Virus record (IMG/VR): IMGVR_UViG_3300049259_000141
Location: 1-55,690 of that record
Reading direction: 5' to 3' (one strand)
Length of the DNA: 55,690 nucleotides
From: a virus
In this document: one piece after another, positions 10,076-22,479 of the stretch
Position numbering within the stretch: the first letter of the stretch is position 1
Layout of the letters: each line of letters starts with the position of its first letter
Notes under the pieces: generated by a model
What the model saw: the letters and a program-made list of their open reading frames with translations, nothing else
Database searches by the model: none
What the model was told of the DNA's origin: nothing
Translations under genes and position numbers: made by a program

Positions 10076-11863
10076 TCAGTCGTTCGCCTGCCCGGCGGAG
10101 GTGATCGTCGTGACGGTCTCGACGGCGACGGTGGCAGCGGCCGCGCCGGTCGGCTGAAGCGACATGGCGATGTGCAGGGACTCGATGCCCCGGAACGCCG
10201 TGTGTTCGAAGCCCTCGGAGAACGTCTGGTAGCGGTTCTCGCCCACCAGCGTGCTGTCACGGATGACACCGACGTCGAGGGTGCCGCCGTCCATCAGCAG
10301 CCAGTCGCCCTCGGCGAACAGCAGCGTCGACACGACGTCCGGGAAACCGGGGATGACCTGGCCGGCGACGACCGGCGAGTAGAACTGGTTGGGGATCGTC
10401 AGCGCCGGGGTGGTGATGTTCGCCGGCTTGATGCCGTCGAGGTGCCAGGTGACGGCGACGTTCCTCGCGCTGAACCAGTCGGAGATCATCGCATCGGTGG
10501 CGGCCAGCGTGACGAGACCGTCGCCGGGCATCTGCCGCAGCAGGTCGACGCGCAGCAGGTCCTTCATCCACAGGGGTGCGATGAACCGCAGGTTCCGGTT
10601 GCTGTTCAACCGGTGCACGTTGCGGTAGTAGGCCAGCACGTGATCGATGGTGGCGAGGGTGTCGCGCACCGCGCCGAGCAGCTGCTTGGACTGCACGGTG
10701 GTCGAGCCGGTGGTGAGCTGCGTGATCAGCTCGTTCTCGGCCTTCTGCGCGTACGCGATGTTCTGCGCCTTGACGATCGAGTCGGCCCACTCGGGGTCGA
10801 AGCGCGACGACATGTTCGAGATGGTCAGGCACTGATAGATGGCCTGCACCTCGGCCTCGACGACACCGGGGCACGCGATTTCGACGCAGGACTTCGGCAC
10901 GATCGGCGACGCCGTGTCGCTGTCGGTGGTCCAGATGCCGATGCCACCCGTCTGGGCCACACCCGAGATCGCCGGACGGTAGGTGATGCCGCCACGGTCG
11001 GCGGTGACGCGGTTGAGCGCGTCACGCACCGGGCGGTCGACGTCACCGATCACCGGGATGTCGTAGAGCACCTGAAGCGGCGCGCAGAACCCGCCGGCAG
11101 CGGTCAGCACGTCGCCGGTGGCGGCCTGCTCGGACAGCTGCTCCAGCTGGAGCTTGTTGTCGAAGGCATCGGCCCCGGCGCGGAAGACACGCGACTCGGG
11201 GAAGTCGGTGCGCTGCCGGATCACATCCGTGCGGCCGTTCAGGCCGGCACTGAGCTGGCCGACGCGCCGGAAGGCCTCCGCGAACGCGTGCGCGACGCCA
11301 CGGCGGTCGAGCTGGACACCGCTCTCCGAGCCGGGCCCGGACAGTGCCATGGTGCGGACGTTGGCAACCTCGCCGCCAACGCCGGGGCGCAGCCCGGACG
11401 CGCGGCCGCCGAGTCGCCGGCCGGCCGCCTGCACGCCGTCGCCCTTGTCCTCGGTTGACTCGCCGCCCTCGGGCTGTTCGGCCCCGGCACCGTCGCCGCT
11501 CTCCGTCTTGTCGTTCTCGGCCGCGCGCCGCTGGCCCGGGTTGGCCGGGTGCAGCTCATTGCCGGCGGGGTCGGTCGCCAGCTCGGCCAGCTCGGCCAGG
11601 GAGGCCTTGCCGTCGGCGGCGAGCTTGTCGAGGTTGGCCTGCGCGGCCTTGATCTCGGTCAGCGCGGCAACGTGCGCCTGCACGACCGGCACCTCTTCGG
11701 CCGCCAGGTCGCCGGCCTTCGCGCTGAACGGCGCGGCCGACTTCAGCACCTCAGCGCGGATGGCGGCCAGTTCGGCCGGGGTCTTCGTCGCGAGTGCGGC
11801 CTTCGCCTCTGCCAGCTGATCTCCGCCGGCAGCGAAGGCGGCGAGAATCTGTGAGACGTCCAT
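10076..11863 (-). CDS. Major capsid protein with N-terminal scaffold-like region (HK97 fold)
   Basis: This 595-residue protein is the likely major capsid protein. Residues 1-75 are a charged Ala-rich coiled coil, and residues 80-180 a Glu/Gly/Arg-rich linker. Together they resemble a fused scaffolding (delta) domain removed at maturation by the upstream protease. From about residue 190 the HK97-fold pattern follows: long helix, beta segments, LRFIAPLWMKDLLR (spine region) and the late FRGIESLHIA motif frequent in actinophage capsids. The ATG follows AAGGGAAA. A 144-base leader precedes it and a strong hairpin follows its stop. Confidence 0.85.
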   Translation of the reverse strand: MDVSQILAAFAAGGDQLAEAKAALATKTPAELAAIRAEVLKSAAPFSAKAGDLAAEEVPVVQAHVAALTEIKAAQANLDKLAADGKASLAELAELATDPAGNELHPANPGQRRAAENDKTESGDGAGAEQPEGGESTEDKGDGVQAAGRRLGGRASGLRPGVGGEVANVRTMALSGPGSESGVQLDRRGVAHAFAEAFRRVGQLSAGLNGRTDVIRQRTDFPESRVFRAGADAFDNKLQLEQLSEQAATGDVLTAAGGFCAPLQVLYDIPVIGDVDRPVRDALNRVTADRGGITYRPAISGVAQTGGIGIWTTDSDTASPIVPKSCVEIACPGVVEAEVQAIYQCLTISNMSSRFDPEWADSIVKAQNIAYAQKAENELITQLTTGSTTVQSKQLLGAVRDTLATIDHVLAYYRNVHRLNSNRNLRFIAPLWMKDLLRVDLLRQMPGDGLVTLAATDAMISDWFSARNVAVTWHLDGIKPANITTPALTIPNQFYSPVVAGQVIPGFPDVVSTLLFAEGDWLLMDGGTLDVGVIRDSTLVGENRYQTFSEGFEHTAFRGIESLHIAMSLQPTGAAAATVAVETVTTITSAGQAND

Positions 11864-13627: not shown

Positions 13628-16405
13628 TTAGTCGGCGTGGCTCTTAGCCTTCTTGGCTTCCCAATCCGCTGCGGCGGCACACCATTCGGCCCTGGTGCCG
13701 GCGTTCACTTCCTGCTGACCCGGCCAGTTCAAATCGCCCGTGGCACAGCCCTTCTTGACCACGTTGACGGCCGTCGCGATCGCCCGCGACTTGTCCATTC
13801 CCTTGGCCTCAAGGTGCTTCTCGATCTTCTTGACCGGCAGAGGCAGGCCGCCGGCGTCCTCGACCCAGTTGAACTGCCCGTCACCTTCGGCGAGCAGTTC
13901 GATCTCGACGGCCAGCTGCATCAGCGGGTCCTCTTCGAGCTCGACCGAGTGGCCGCTGAGCTCGGCCAGCTGCGAGAGCGCGGCCACCCCCTGGGCGCGC
14001 AGCGCGTCCCGGGCGTCCATGCGGCGCACCACGGCCTCGGCCAGCGCCTCCATGTCGACCGTGACCGGCTGCATGACCGGCACCTGCTCCAACCGGCCAG
14101 CGGCCACCAGGGCGAGCTGCACTCCGGACGCCACACGGGCGCGCGGCACCGGGAACCCGGGCGTGTTCACCCCGAGCACGGCGACCAGTTCGAGCGTGCC
14201 GCCGATGTTGCGCCAGTCGCCCGACGGCGGCGCGGCCCGGAACGCGCGCCAGTCCTTTGCCGACAGGCCGTCGCGCACCGCGCCCGAAACCCAGATGCCG
14301 TGTGCGTCCTCCCCGCACACCACGTCCGCCCCCACGGTGCCGGTGTCGTCGTAGTGGCGCACCGTGCTGGCCGCCGACAGCTTGCCGCCGGCGTGCCCGG
14401 TGCCGAACGTGAGGTGCCCGACCGCGACCGGGCCGGCGTCAGTCAGCACCTCGCCGGTGTGGAAGTAGGCGTACTTCGTGGCCGACTTGGGCGGCGTGAC
14501 GCACTGGCCGCCGAAGCCGATGTGACAGGTGCCCCACGTGGCGATATGCCCGAACACGCGGCCGTCCTCGGCGAAGGTCAGCGGCGTTGGCCCGGCCAGC
14601 TTCGGGTCCTCGAAGTGGCTGGCCGGCAGGACGCGCGCCGAGCTGGCCACCATGGACGGCTTGCCGCCGTTCAGCGGGTAGTCGACGGTGTGCTGCGGGG
14701 TGGCGACGCGCACCTTGCTGAACTTGACCGGGCCCGGGTGGTTCAGCTTGGGCAGGACCTTCGCGGCGTCCGGGGACTGCTTGGCGGTGACGTGCGGCAC
14801 GAACGGGGTGTGCTGTTCGGGCAGCTTGCGCCGGCCGCCGAGCATGGCCGTCACGTGCTGGTGCACCTTGTCGCGGAAGTCTCCGACGTCGGCCGAGTCG
14901 CCGAGCAGGTGCACGGCGGCCGGCGTCTGCTTGCCGGTCTTGCCGCCGTTGGGGTTGAACAGCGATGGGCCGAGCACGTGGGCTTTGATCGGGCCGCCGC
15001 GCTTCTGCGGGGGCTTCGGCCGTGGCTGCGGGATCTGAGGAGTCGTCGTCTTGTCTCCCGCATCTCCTTCTACGCCAGGTCCGGACGCGTCGGCGAAGTC
15101 GCCCGGCTGCTCGCCGGCAGCGGCCGGGAACACGTCGTGGTCGGTGTCGCCCTCGGGCGTGGTGTCGTCGTCGCCATCCCCGTCGGGGTCCATGGCCGAC
15201 GAATTGTGGTGCGCGATCGCCTGATTCACACCACTGTGCACGTCGGCGATGTCCTGCGGCGACCACTCAGGCAGGTCGTCGCCGAGGTACAGCATGGTGC
15301 AGTGCATCTCATCGGCGGGGTCGCCGCCGGGCACAGTGAAGGCTTCCGGGTTGTCCGGCATCAGGGCCACCATGCCGGACGTCGGGTACTGGTCGCCGGC
15401 CGCGCGGAGATCCTGCTCCCACGGAGCGGTCTTGCCCATGCGCCGGTAGGTGAGCGCGAGCACCGTCTTGGCCCGCTCCTTGTCGGCGGTCGGCATGTTC
15501 GAGCCGTCCAGCCGACCAGCGGCGGCCGACACGGCGGCCGGCACGATCTTGGGCTTGCCGTCGATGATGTCGACCAGAGGGAACCCCCACGCACCGATGG
15601 TCTTCGCGTCGGCGGCGTCGTCACGATACAGAAACGCGGTGCTCAGCTTGCCCGTGTCGTTGCCGGCCCAAGCCTCGATTCGCTTGGTGGCTGCGCCCGC
15701 GTCCCATGCCGTGCTGTCGGACGCGAAGGGCAGGCTGGCGAAACCCGCCGAGTTGACGGCGGCCACCAACTGCCCCGCCAGGCACGGTGAGCAGGCGTCG
15801 CCGAGGTCGGCCGAGCGCCACATGGGTGTTGCCGAGGCGGCCAGGGCCTGCGCGTTGGGCTCGATGGTCTGGCCGTCCAGCACCACGTAGGCGTCCGGGA
15901 ACGCCGGCAGGCCGACCAGGGTCGTTGCGCCGATGACACCCTCGACCATGTTGAGCTGCTCGTTGCCGTCGTCAGCCATGGACACGTCTGCGACCACGGC
16001 GGACAGGTCCACCGAGTTGCCGGAGAGCGCGCCGTCCTTGACCATGCGGAACGCCGGCACGTCGTTGTACATCCACCCCTTGCCGGACCACACGAAGGTG
16101 CCGTCGGGGAACGGCTGGCCGGTGGACTTGCTGACCACGTCCGGGCCCGGAGTGCGGGTCAGCTCGGTCAGCGCGCCGACCACGTCCGCGTTGTCGTGGC
16201 CCTGACCGCCGTCGGGCGTGCGCGTCTGGGCGTAGAGGGTGAGTGGCACGGCGCGGTGGGTCAGCGCGCCGGGCTCGATGTACCGGCCGTCAGCGGTCGC
16301 CATGCCTTCGATAGCGAGGCAGGGGAAGCTGATCGGCGCGGCGTTCTCGGGGGTTGCCGGCGCGCTTTGCGTGGGCTGCGTCGACTCAATCACGGGGGCA
16401 GTCAC
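13628..16405 (-). CDS. Capsid maturation protease with inserted 2H phosphoesterase-like domain
   Basis: This 925-residue multidomain head protein starts at a GTG overlapping the portal stop (GTGA). Residues 25-180 resemble the N-terminal half of actinophage head maturation proteases (AIEGMATADGRYIEPGAL, GHDNADVVG, SGNSVDL). Residues 230-335 form the WDAGAATKRIEAWAG...MGKTAPW module often found in phage head proteins. Residues 345-600 carry two HxT motifs, H368-C-T370 (EMHCTMLYLGD) and H538-V-T540 (FVPHVTAK), separated by an acidic/Pro-rich linker (404-470); this is the signature of 2H phosphoesterases. Residues 605-790 contain FGHIATWGTCHIGFGGQC and GDWRNIGGTLELVAVLGVN, the other conserved part of these proteases. 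The protease role is well supported by context. The 2H activity is inference. Confidence 0.85.
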   Translation of the reverse strand: MTAPVIESTQPTQSAPATPENAAPISFPCLAIEGMATADGRYIEPGALTHRAVPLTLYAQTRTPDGGQGHDNADVVGALTELTRTPGPDVVSKSTGQPFPDGTFVWSGKGWMYNDVPAFRMVKDGALSGNSVDLSAVVADVSMADDGNEQLNMVEGVIGATTLVGLPAFPDAYVVLDGQTIEPNAQALAASATPMWRSADLGDACSPCLAGQLVAAVNSAGFASLPFASDSTAWDAGAATKRIEAWAGNDTGKLSTAFLYRDDAADAKTIGAWGFPLVDIIDGKPKIVPAAVSAAAGRLDGSNMPTADKERAKTVLALTYRRMGKTAPWEQDLRAAGDQYPTSGMVALMPDNPEAFTVPGGDPADEMHCTMLYLGDDLPEWSPQDIADVHSGVNQAIAHHNSSAMDPDGDGDDDTTPEGDTDHDVFPAAAGEQPGDFADASGPGVEGDAGDKTTTPQIPQPRPKPPQKRGGPIKAHVLGPSLFNPNGGKTGKQTPAAVHLLGDSADVGDFRDKVHQHVTAMLGGRRKLPEQHTPFVPHVTAKQSPDAAKVLPKLNHPGPVKFSKVRVATPQHTVDYPLNGGKPSMVASSARVLPASHFEDPKLAGPTPLTFAEDGRVFGHIATWGTCHIGFGGQCVTPPKSATKYAYFHTGEVLTDAGPVAVGHLTFGTGHAGGKLSAASTVRHYDDTGTVGADVVCGEDAHGIWVSGAVRDGLSAKDWRAFRAAPPSGDWRNIGGTLELVAVLGVNTPGFPVPRARVASGVQLALVAAGRLEQVPVMQPVTVDMEALAEAVVRRMDARDALRAQGVAALSQLAELSGHSVELEEDPLMQLAVEIELLAEGDGQFNWVEDAGGLPLPVKKIEKHLEAKGMDKSRAIATAVNVVKKGCATGDLNWPGQQEVNAGTRAEWCAAAADWEAKKAKSHAD

Positions 16406-19152
16406 GACGCCACCTTTCCACCATTGATAAAGCGTGCCTGCAATTTCTGAATGCGTTCCCACTGATCCCGCATGGCTTGCGCATTCGTATTCTTTCGACC
16501 GGCCTGGTCATCCATCTGCGCGAGAGAGATGATATTCGCCATGTCGACCGACGGCTTCGTGAGCCGCTGCGCCACCTGCTGGCCGTATTTCGGCACGGCG
16601 TAGGCCGGCACATAGTCGCACATGCAGCCCTGGTGGTCGCCGGGGTGCATATGATCTCCGAGCCATTCGTATCCGCTCGGCGGGTCGAGTTGCGGGTCCG
16701 ACCAGTCGGCGAAGCGAATGCCCTCGATGTTCAGGTGCGGAATGAAATTGTCGGGGGCCAGGGTGACGCCGTAAACCCACAGGTAGCCGAGGTTCACCGC
16801 GCCGCGTTCCGCCAGGGTGGCCTGCACCGTCGAGCCGGACGCCAGGCCGGCCGCCGGCGCGCTGCTGCGCCCTGTCGAGTTGACGTGTGCCGCGCCCTCT
16901 CCGATGCCGCCGATGTCGGCCAGCACCGCCCGCACCATGCCCGGCGGTACCCGGGTGTCGGCCAGCTCGCTGTTGGTGGGCGGCGTGTACTCGCCGTGCA
17001 GCACCTTGTCGGCGAGCTCTTCGAGGTCACCGTTGAGCCGGTGCCAGCCGTTGTTCACGCGCCCAGCCATGTCGGCGTGCACACGGTCGTGCAGCTGGTG
17101 GGCCTGGTCGCTGCCGGCGGGGATGCGCAGCATGCGCACCAGCTTGGTGGCGATCCGGTCGATGGCGGCCAGCGTCCACTGCGTGAACTTGCCGCCGAGC
17201 GTGGCGAACGCGCCGGCGATCAGGAAGTCGGCTGTCGCCCCCGCCGTCAGGGCCCGGTCGCGGCCGATGAACGCACCCCACTCTTCGTACGGCCGGGCGC
17301 GCAGCTCGGCCGAGATTGCCGTGTCGCCGCTGAACTTCGAACGCAGCTTGCTCGCGCCCCGGCGCACCGCGTCGGCCAGCATGGTGTCCGCAGCTGTGAT
17401 GATGCGCTCGCGCAACGCCTGCTCGATGGCCACAATGTCCCGGTAGTCGTCGAACACCAGGTCGTAATCGGGGTCGTCGTAGACGGCGGCGGCGACCATG
17501 GACAGCTTGGCCGAGAGCCGTTCGAGCACGGCGTGCCCGTCGGCGGCCAGGCCGGGCGGTGTCGCCGGCGGTGCACCGACACCGCCGCTGGGGCCAGCCG
17601 GCAGGCCGGCGGGCTCGGTGACCTCCTTGGTGATGCCGTCGGCCGGCGCGCCGCCCTTGTCGCCGATGCTGACCGTTTCGCGCGTGGGCAGCACGATCGG
17701 TTCCTTCGGCGTCAGCACGCGCTGAATCAGCTGGGACGCGGTGAGGGGGTCGAAGGCCGTCTTGAACAGCAGCATCCGCAGGGTCTCGTCATCGGACGGC
17801 TTGTCGCCGTCGTTGAACCCGAGGGCCTGCAACAGGGCGTCGTACCCGATTCCGCCGACCGCGAAGGCGTCGAGGGCATCCTGCCGGCGGTTGGTGTTCT
17901 CGGTGATGTTGCCGGCGTCGTACCAGATGCGGATCCGCTTGACGTCCTTCGGGTCCCACCCGTCCTCAATCAGGTTGTACCGCAGGTAGGCGACGGTCAG
18001 CGAGTCGACCATGCGCCGCGCGCCCGGCTCCAAGTGGTAGCGGAACGTGCTGGCGTCGATCTGCCACGCCGACCAGTGGTTCGAGTCGCCCAGGCCGGCG
18101 ATGATCTCGGGCGGCAGGTCCATGCCTCGGCCCATGCGCCGCAGGGCCTCTTCGAGTTTCGCGGCCAGCTCGGGTGACGTCTCGCGCGCGAGCTGAAGGT
18201 GCGTGACAGCCTTGATGTCCTCGGCGTCGCCGGTCAGCACCAGGGGCACGACCGCGCCGGCGTCACCTTCGTTGGTGATCGGCGCGAGCAGGGCGGACGT
18301 CAGCTCGCCCATGAATTCATCGGAGTCCACCGACACGCCGTCGACTTCGCCGTTGGTGTTGCGGGCGAGCGTCATCGTGTTCGGGAACATCAGCAGCCCG
18401 TTCGCGGCGATACGCGAGCGGGCGGCGGCCCGGATCTCTCGGCCGATCAGCACGATGTCTTCGAACACGTCGAGGGCGGCCTGACACGGCGAATCGGCGA
18501 GGATGCCCCGGCGGGGATGCGGGACCCACAACCTGTACAACTCCTCTTCGTCCCACTGGACGTAGCGGCGCTGCCCCGGGTTGTCGTCGTCGTCGATCTG
18601 GCACGTGCGGCCGTCCTGCCCGGGCCACACTTCGTCGATCGACCGGATGCGCCACTGCTCGTCACCGGTGTCGGGGTCGATGGTGCCGTGCAGCCAGCAC
18701 TCGCCGGCGGCGTCGAAGTTCTCCGACCACGCGCCGAGGAAGGTGAAGCCGTCGTCGAGCGGCAGCCGGTCGAGCATGGCCTGTGCGGCGTCGACCAGGT
18801 CTGGCGGCAGGTCGATCTGGGCCGCCTTTTTCGGGTCCTTGTCGTGGATCAGCGACAGCGGGATCGGTTCGTCGTCGTCGCTGATGACCAGCGCAGGGAA
18901 GAGCCGGATACGGCTGAGGGCCGAGGAGCGGTAGCCCATGGCGAACCGCAGCTCGGGGATACTGTCCCGGTAGCGCCAGGCGAGCGGCTGCCACTGCTGC
19001 CGTGCCTGCGCGACGGCGCGCAGCTGGTTGCCGCCGCCCTCGGTCGACGGCTTGATGCGCATGCCGGCGGCCCGCATGGCGCGCACGTGCCGTGACTGGC
19101 CGGGCTCGGTGACGTCGCCGCTTCGCCATCCGAAGCGCTGGAAGATACCCAC
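16402..19152 (-). CDS. Portal protein fused to MuF-like head morphogenesis domain
   Basis: This 916-residue protein follows a GTG with ribosome site GGGGAGTGA. Residues 1-460 are a portal: FAMGYRSSALSRIRLFPALV, the clip/stem region with DLPPEIIAGLGDSNHWSAW, and RRQDALDAFAVGGIGYDALL. After a Gly/Pro linker (about 500-540), residues 555-900 are a MuF-like head morphogenesis domain, ending with the HPGDHQGCMCDYVP cluster where MuF proteins usually have H-P-x-C-x-C. Portals form the dodecameric packaging vertex, and MuF domains are internal head proteins. The two are more often separate genes. Confidence 0.9.
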   Translation of the reverse strand: MGIFQRFGWRSGDVTEPGQSRHVRAMRAAGMRIKPSTEGGGNQLRAVAQARQQWQPLAWRYRDSIPELRFAMGYRSSALSRIRLFPALVISDDDEPIPLSLIHDKDPKKAAQIDLPPDLVDAAQAMLDRLPLDDGFTFLGAWSENFDAAGECWLHGTIDPDTGDEQWRIRSIDEVWPGQDGRTCQIDDDDNPGQRRYVQWDEEELYRLWVPHPRRGILADSPCQAALDVFEDIVLIGREIRAAARSRIAANGLLMFPNTMTLARNTNGEVDGVSVDSDEFMGELTSALLAPITNEGDAGAVVPLVLTGDAEDIKAVTHLQLARETSPELAAKLEEALRRMGRGMDLPPEIIAGLGDSNHWSAWQIDASTFRYHLEPGARRMVDSLTVAYLRYNLIEDGWDPKDVKRIRIWYDAGNITENTNRRQDALDAFAVGGIGYDALLQALGFNDGDKPSDDETLRMLLFKTAFDPLTASQLIQRVLTPKEPIVLPTRETVSIGDKGGAPADGITKEVTEPAGLPAGPSGGVGAPPATPPGLAADGHAVLERLSAKLSMVAAAVYDDPDYDLVFDDYRDIVAIEQALRERIITAADTMLADAVRRGASKLRSKFSGDTAISAELRARPYEEWGAFIGRDRALTAGATADFLIAGAFATLGGKFTQWTLAAIDRIATKLVRMLRIPAGSDQAHQLHDRVHADMAGRVNNGWHRLNGDLEELADKVLHGEYTPPTNSELADTRVPPGMVRAVLADIGGIGEGAAHVNSTGRSSAPAAGLASGSTVQATLAERGAVNLGYLWVYGVTLAPDNFIPHLNIEGIRFADWSDPQLDPPSGYEWLGDHMHPGDHQGCMCDYVPAYAVPKYGQQVAQRLTKPSVDMANIISLAQMDDQAGRKNTNAQAMRDQWERIQKLQARFINGGKVAS

Positions 19153-22275: not shown

Positions 22276-22405
22276 ACGGTGTGCACCAGCCCCCGTACTG
22301 GTCCCCTGACCGGGTGCGAGCCGGAAACGGGGAGTGTTCGGGGGGCCGGTGACCACCCGGCGGTTGGCTATCGCGACCCGCCGGTCGCGACTCCTGCCGC
22401 CTTGC

Positions 22406-22479
22406 GTGCTGCCACGGACGCGAACCGTGGATCCCTGACTGACTCCTGCTCAGCCTGCTCTGCCGTTGAGCTACAGCAC
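22406..22479 (-). tRNA. tRNA-like gene, possible anticodon AGG (Pro), irregular
   Basis: Acceptor GTGCTGT/GCAGCAC pairs with one wobble, D-arm GCTC-AACGGCA-GAGC is normal, and the T-arm CACGG-TTCGCGT-CCGTG is intact. The best anticodon arm is GCTGA-GCAGGAG-TCAGT, which would give AGG. But base 33 is C rather than U, and the spacer lengths on either side of the D-arm are one off. Identity and activity are doubtful. Confidence 0.6.

Follow-up and report, generated by a model that had tools for sequence, protein, structure and literature searches.

A predicted 2H phosphoesterase domain within the head maturation protease of an actinobacteriophage-type virus, and its varied placement among related phages

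The window, by which we mean the whole 55,690-base IMG/VR record IMGVR_UViG_3300049259_000141, derives from an actinobacteriophage-type virus, and all of the features located below lie on its minus strand. The head maturation protease gene, which contains an internal 2H domain, occupies positions 13628..16405 (925 amino acids, with a GTG start and the stop included) and sits in the head module between the portal protein gene upstream (16402..19152; phrog_776, E 5e-90) and the major capsid protein gene downstream (10076..11863; NF033847, E 2e-82), its GTG start overlapping the stop of the portal ORF by 4 nt (GTGA). The protein matches PHROG groups 859, 18402, 21470 and 29860, which are portal/head maturation protease groups, and its middle matches PHROG group 2659, labelled 'RNA ligase'; the PHROG labels mix the head-protease and 2H domains. 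Full-length homologues of the head protease are found at 53-74% (best segment). Taken alone, the protein gives nothing above cut-off in either Pfam or NCBIfam, and for this reason its relatives were needed for the family assignment. The single tRNA gene of the window, for tRNA-Pro (anticodon AGG), lies at 22404-22479.

Apart from the 2H domain, four regions can be recognized in the head protease. The N domain (residues 20-194; 15824..16348) has a predicted assemblin-like, herpesvirus-type serine protease fold, with residues 19-194 of the full-length model matching the herpesvirus proteases 1nju, 1at3, 1nkk and 1o6e (HCMV, HSV-2, EBV) at Z 6.7-7.1 and the EBV protease reaching a Foldseek probability of 0.95 against the same model. 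Its Ser131, in the motif GNSVDLS, is present in 19 of 19 aligned rows, and His70 in 11 of 21. The C domain (residues 598-800; 14006..14614) is a conserved head-protease domain in which H620, H628, H649, H671, H684 and the run S728-G-D-W-R are invariant across 21 aligned full-length relatives; the same alignment also shows a CH...C pair. This domain differs from the assemblin-like N domain and does not appear among the fold matches listed for the full-length model. The initial annotation had taken the sequences flanking the 2H domain for two conserved halves of one protease, a division that we do not uphold, as only the N part (19-194) resembles assemblin and residues 598-800 constitute a second conserved domain. 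The two remaining regions are accessory: the B domain (residues 206-338; 15392..15790), which has varied positions in other head proteases, and the helical E domain (residues 845-925; 13631..13873), likewise mobile among relatives. Both B and E move about from one head protease to another, and some separate ORFs carry E-like sequence (window, L018, L036, L107, L110); we therefore regard the head protease as a general platform for shuffled domains.

The initial annotation proposed a 2H-phosphoesterase-like domain inside the capsid maturation protease on the basis of two HxT motifs, and the motifs lie exactly where it placed them, H368-C-T370 at 15296..15304 and H538-V-T540 at 14786..14794. The presence of the two motifs alone is no evidence, because 53% of shuffled head protease sequences contain at least two HxT; the protein has four (at residues 368, 517, 538 and 664) where its composition predicts 1.7. 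Read by themselves, such numbers would favor chance motifs in a region that is merely a linker, a reading to which we assign negligible probability and which is contradicted by the predicted fold, the profile match and the conservation of all four catalytic positions. AlphaFold2 with 87 sequences gave residues 336-600 a mean pLDDT of 82.7, with the core above 90. The 2H superfamily is defined by two HxT/S motifs carried on paired strands, and in this model motif 1 adjoins strand E34-40 and motif 2 begins strand E203-208. Compared with known structures by VIA-align, the model is closest to 1iuh, the Thermus thermophilus 2'-5' RNA ligase homologue (Z 13.8), and to 5h7e, the Deinococcus radiodurans CPDase (Z 13.4), followed, among others, by human Usb1 (12.6), Escherichia coli LigT (12.0) and Acb1 (9.0); all 43 PDB entries at Z >= 8.7 are 2H proteins, the next entries fall below Z 5, and the full-length head protease model gives the same 2H result. 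A sequence profile matches 1iuh at E 1.9e-6 with both HxT motifs paired with those of 1iuh. This pairing, taken with an alignment to 1iuh and LigT that spans the whole domain, suggests that in the modelled fold both motifs face one catalytic cleft.

Conservation points the same way. In a set of 100 distinct relatives, which form 67 clusters at 60% identity and have a median pairwise identity of 34%, H368 is retained in 99, T370 in all 100, H538 in 99 and T540 in 86, with the substitutions at T540 mostly Cys (10 of the 100); the median conservation of a column is 0.42. By conservation, T370, H368 and H538 all rank in the top four columns of the domain, and in an alignment of 25 relatives H368, T370 and H538 are invariant. 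The second catalytic threonine has become Cys or Ala (HxC, HxA) in Streptomyces phage copies and some metagenomic ones (L047, L053, L056 and relatives), and one copy (L039) has lost both catalytic histidines. In Pfam, the window protein scores 13.2 bits against 2_5_RNA_ligase2 (PF13563), under the cut-off of 27; of 25 relatives, 21 are hit by PF13563 at E <= 0.01, several of them above the cut-off (e.g. 43.3, 36.4 and 30.5 bits). From the modelled fold, the profile match and the conserved catalytic residues, we conclude that residues 341-582 (14660..15385) form a 2H phosphoesterase domain. Enzymes of this superfamily cut cyclic or 2'-5' phosphodiesters without a metal. The domain is very probably an active phosphoesterase, because the catalytic positions are under strong constraint.

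Between the motifs lies an acidic, Pro/Gly-rich stretch (residues 405-468; 15002..15193), described in the initial annotation as an acidic linker separating them. The acidic character is real, with 16 Asp or Glu against 4 Lys or Arg in 64 residues of Asp/Pro/Gly-rich composition, but the stretch is a disordered insert of ~64 amino acids inside the 2H domain rather than a linker between domains: its pLDDT is 29-38 over most of its length and it is missing from most relatives, so that the H-to-H spacing is 170 in the window protein against a median of 98. Segments of low confidence do flank the 2H domain in the full-length model, at residues 333-340 and 584-590, and flexible linkers on either side of the domain, as the model suggests, would allow its release.

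Within the 2H superfamily the domain is best compared with the 2_5_RNA_ligase2/LigT branch (PF13563, PF02834; 1iuh, 5h7e, LigT), with which it shares the whole-domain fold and both HxT motifs, and from which it differs in being built into a phage head protease and in carrying the 64-residue acidic insert between the motifs. LigT/CPDase-type proteins are closer to it than Acb1 in both sequence and fold. Acb1, the anti-CBASS nuclease of phages T4 and FBB1, is a free-standing 2H enzyme with an HxT/HxT tetrad (H44, T46, H113, T115), stacking residues Y12, W74, F107 and W147 together with E141, and a C-terminal lid (PMC9117128). The 2H fold, the HxT/HxT tetrad and a phage origin are common to both; Acb1, however, is the weaker structural match (Z 9.0), is smaller and free-standing, and has the C-terminal lid over its pocket. 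Membership of the Acb1 family (PF23474) was rejected, since the window protein has no match to it and the best relative with a score shown reaches 20.3 bits against a cut-off of 27. The original suggestion that the head protease carries or releases an enzyme destroying defence nucleotides is partly supported: the embedding of a 2H domain in the head protease stands on fold and conserved catalytic residues.

The nearness of LigT and CPDase, the nearest solved relatives, together with the naming of related genes as 'RNA ligase', could be read to mean that the domain is a 2',3'-cyclic phosphodiesterase for RNA-end healing or tRNA repair. We consider this unlikely. RtcB, PF09414 and KptA were each found in 0 of 32 carrier genomes and PF09511 in 1 of 32, the last a weaker negative as the PF09511 search matched no control genome, so that all four families are missing from 31 of the 32; the sole carrier with a T4-type ligase is a 171-kb genome, the record of L041. 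The lack of RNA ligase partners in 31 carriers makes RNA repair less likely, an RNA repair operon is rejected on the same count, and the window has a single tRNA gene. A further view, suggested by Iyer et al. in 2017 for polyvalent 2H domains, makes the domain a Usb1-like RNase that is injected and attacks host RNA: Usb1 structures match at Z 12.6, and section 20 of that paper regards such an activity as consistent with MuF and portal fusions (PMC5512222). Usb1 is nonetheless no nearer in fold than LigT or CPDase and is absent from the PDB sequence matches, and we hold this role to be quite improbable.

The family is large, with relatives encoded on at least 411 viral contigs, and the placement of the 2H domain in them varies widely. 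The domain is central in the head protease of the window and of L002-L005, L007, L061-L067 and L069-L071; N-terminal in L009, L013, L040-L042, L078-L081, L083 and others; and C-terminal either after the C domain, in the Gordonia phages Paries, Sampson, Ali17 and GTE6, or after N-B-C (L122, L129, L131). It is found in a gene adjacent to the protease in L111, L117, L120 and L136, and as a short free-standing gene of the head region in Rhodococcus phage E3, Mycobacterium phages Phrappuccino and I3, and Gordonia phages RedWattleHog and CherryTomatoes. Paries gp17, Ali17 gp16 and GTE6 gp18, examples of actinophage genes that carry the name 'RNA ligase' or 'capsid maturation protease', belong to the same family and hold the C domain and the 2H domain in one gene; in contrast to the window, such genes carry 2H C-terminally, and the protease-like stretch is in an upstream MuF gene. 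The E3 record flags gp70 and gp78 as structural proteins, but not the free-standing 2H protein gp74, and in Rhodococcus phage Finch the 2H gene is outside the portal-capsid region, yet near tail genes; both observations speak against a cargo carried in the head. Fusion to protease domains was seen in 70 of 100 distinct 2H copies, a sample biased by having been fetched with the 2H family as query.

By parsimony, placement changed at least 16 times on the 2H tree and at least 23 times on the C-domain tree, the latter figure being inflated by contigs cut at an end (L006, L008) that were scored as without a 2H domain. Well-supported branches force few of these changes; repeated rearrangement is therefore likely from these sequence trees, and its number is not fixed. 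The family is also fused to MuF, to a Mu-type head protease, to an ADP-ribosyltransferase domain and to a GNAT domain. One ORF of L136 (5471-7507), directly upstream of the head protease gene, joins 2H to an ADP-ribosyltransferase exoenzyme domain (PF03496), and in one ORF of L127 (5422-7173) the 2H domain has a peptidoglycan-binding domain on one side and a GNAT acetyltransferase domain on the other. In L108 (4198-7302) parts of another head protease (phrog_3894; Mu-like_Pro, PF10123) flank the 2H domain, and its location within a different head protease suggests an independent fusion.

The constancy of the association with the head might indicate that the domain serves head assembly and not infection, for example by adjusting the protease or by acting in the procapsid on RNA or nucleotides, which it would trim or bind; in nearly all loci with known context 2H is tied to head genes, and it is conserved for catalysis. 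Against such a role, which we judge rather unlikely, many close head proteases have no 2H domain, its position in the polypeptide varies, and its fusion partners include MuF, toxin-type and Mu-type protease domains. Small, compact head proteases without any 2H domain (L012, L016, L030, L043) indicate that the domain is unnecessary for proteolysis. The domain is dispensable in some phages, mobile, and attached again and again to head proteins, as would suit a cargo carried in the head, and its attachment to the same protein at different places in related phages suggests a cargo packed there. Polyvalent or virion-delivered effectors typically join an enzyme domain to a head protein whose gene lies in the packaging module, and the window and its relatives show this arrangement.

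Joining of 2H domains to head proteins has precedents. Iyer et al. (2017) describe, in their treatment of phage polyvalent proteins, 2H domains fused to MuF or portal, state there that these versions are never seen with RNA ligases, and propose RNase action or degradation of nucleotide signals as their roles (PMC5512222); a 2022 survey of viral NAD+-ADPr systems repeats the 2H proposal (PMC9503650). Those fusions, like that of the window, join 2H to a head protein, and in the relevant passages of the two papers it is proposed that they are packaged and then injected to act on nucleotide signals or RNA (PMC5512222, PMC9503650). They differ from the window in that its partner is an assemblin-type head protease, with 2H at three positions in the family or in an adjacent gene. 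In its passages on such fusions, the 2022 survey names Nudix domains, not 2H, as fused to a capsid-processing serine peptidase (PMC9503650). A literature search covering the main text of freely accessible papers found no paper describing a 2H-head protease fusion and no virion mass spectrometry of a carrier phage naming the 2H domain; nor was a paper found on the phage BCSR5 phosphodiesterase (9q2g). Database records already contain many genes for such fusions, named either 'RNA ligase' or 'capsid maturation protease'. The idea of delivery and anti-defence action is thus largely anticipated for the sister fusions (MuF, portal), and the fusion to a head protease, as recognized here from sequence, is a variant that we did not find described in the literature.

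We propose, at about even probability, that an active 2H phosphoesterase travels in the head protease as enzymatic cargo that is packaged, injected and protective of early infection. Under this proposal the fusion would bring the enzyme into the procapsid, where it may be released by the assemblin-like domain as the head matures; the enzyme would then stay in the filled head and enter the cell with the DNA. Once in the cell it would hydrolyze a 2',3'-cyclic, 3'-5' cyclic or 2'-5' phosphodiester, the most likely target being a nucleotide that signals in defence or a product of RNA cleavage, and the effect would be protection of early infection. Release, packaging, injection and an aim at defence nucleotides are each plausible, and the 2H enzyme could instead have its role in the cell late in infection, while heads are assembled.

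Infection must already have begun before counter-defence enzymes expressed from phage genes can act; if the proposal is true, a 2H enzyme pre-loaded by way of the head protease would act at once. It is possible, though we put it forward tentatively, that a large lineage of actinophages uses the capsid protease as carrier for a self-released 2H nuclease, which maturation would lock into the head and which would enter with the genome to disable nucleotide-signal defences before phage gene expression. Members of this one gene family are annotated variously as 'RNA ligase', 'capsid maturation protease', 'portal protein' or 'hypothetical' (L046, L051, L054 and related Gordonia phage records), and with the 2H domain shown to be separate from the protease the annotation of many genomes can be corrected. 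The family occurs in phages of laboratory hosts, among them Gordonia terrae 3612 and Mycobacterium smegmatis mc2 155; because it is large, present in phages of such hosts and inconsistently labelled, the old proposal of an injected, head-fused 2H enzyme becomes directly testable.
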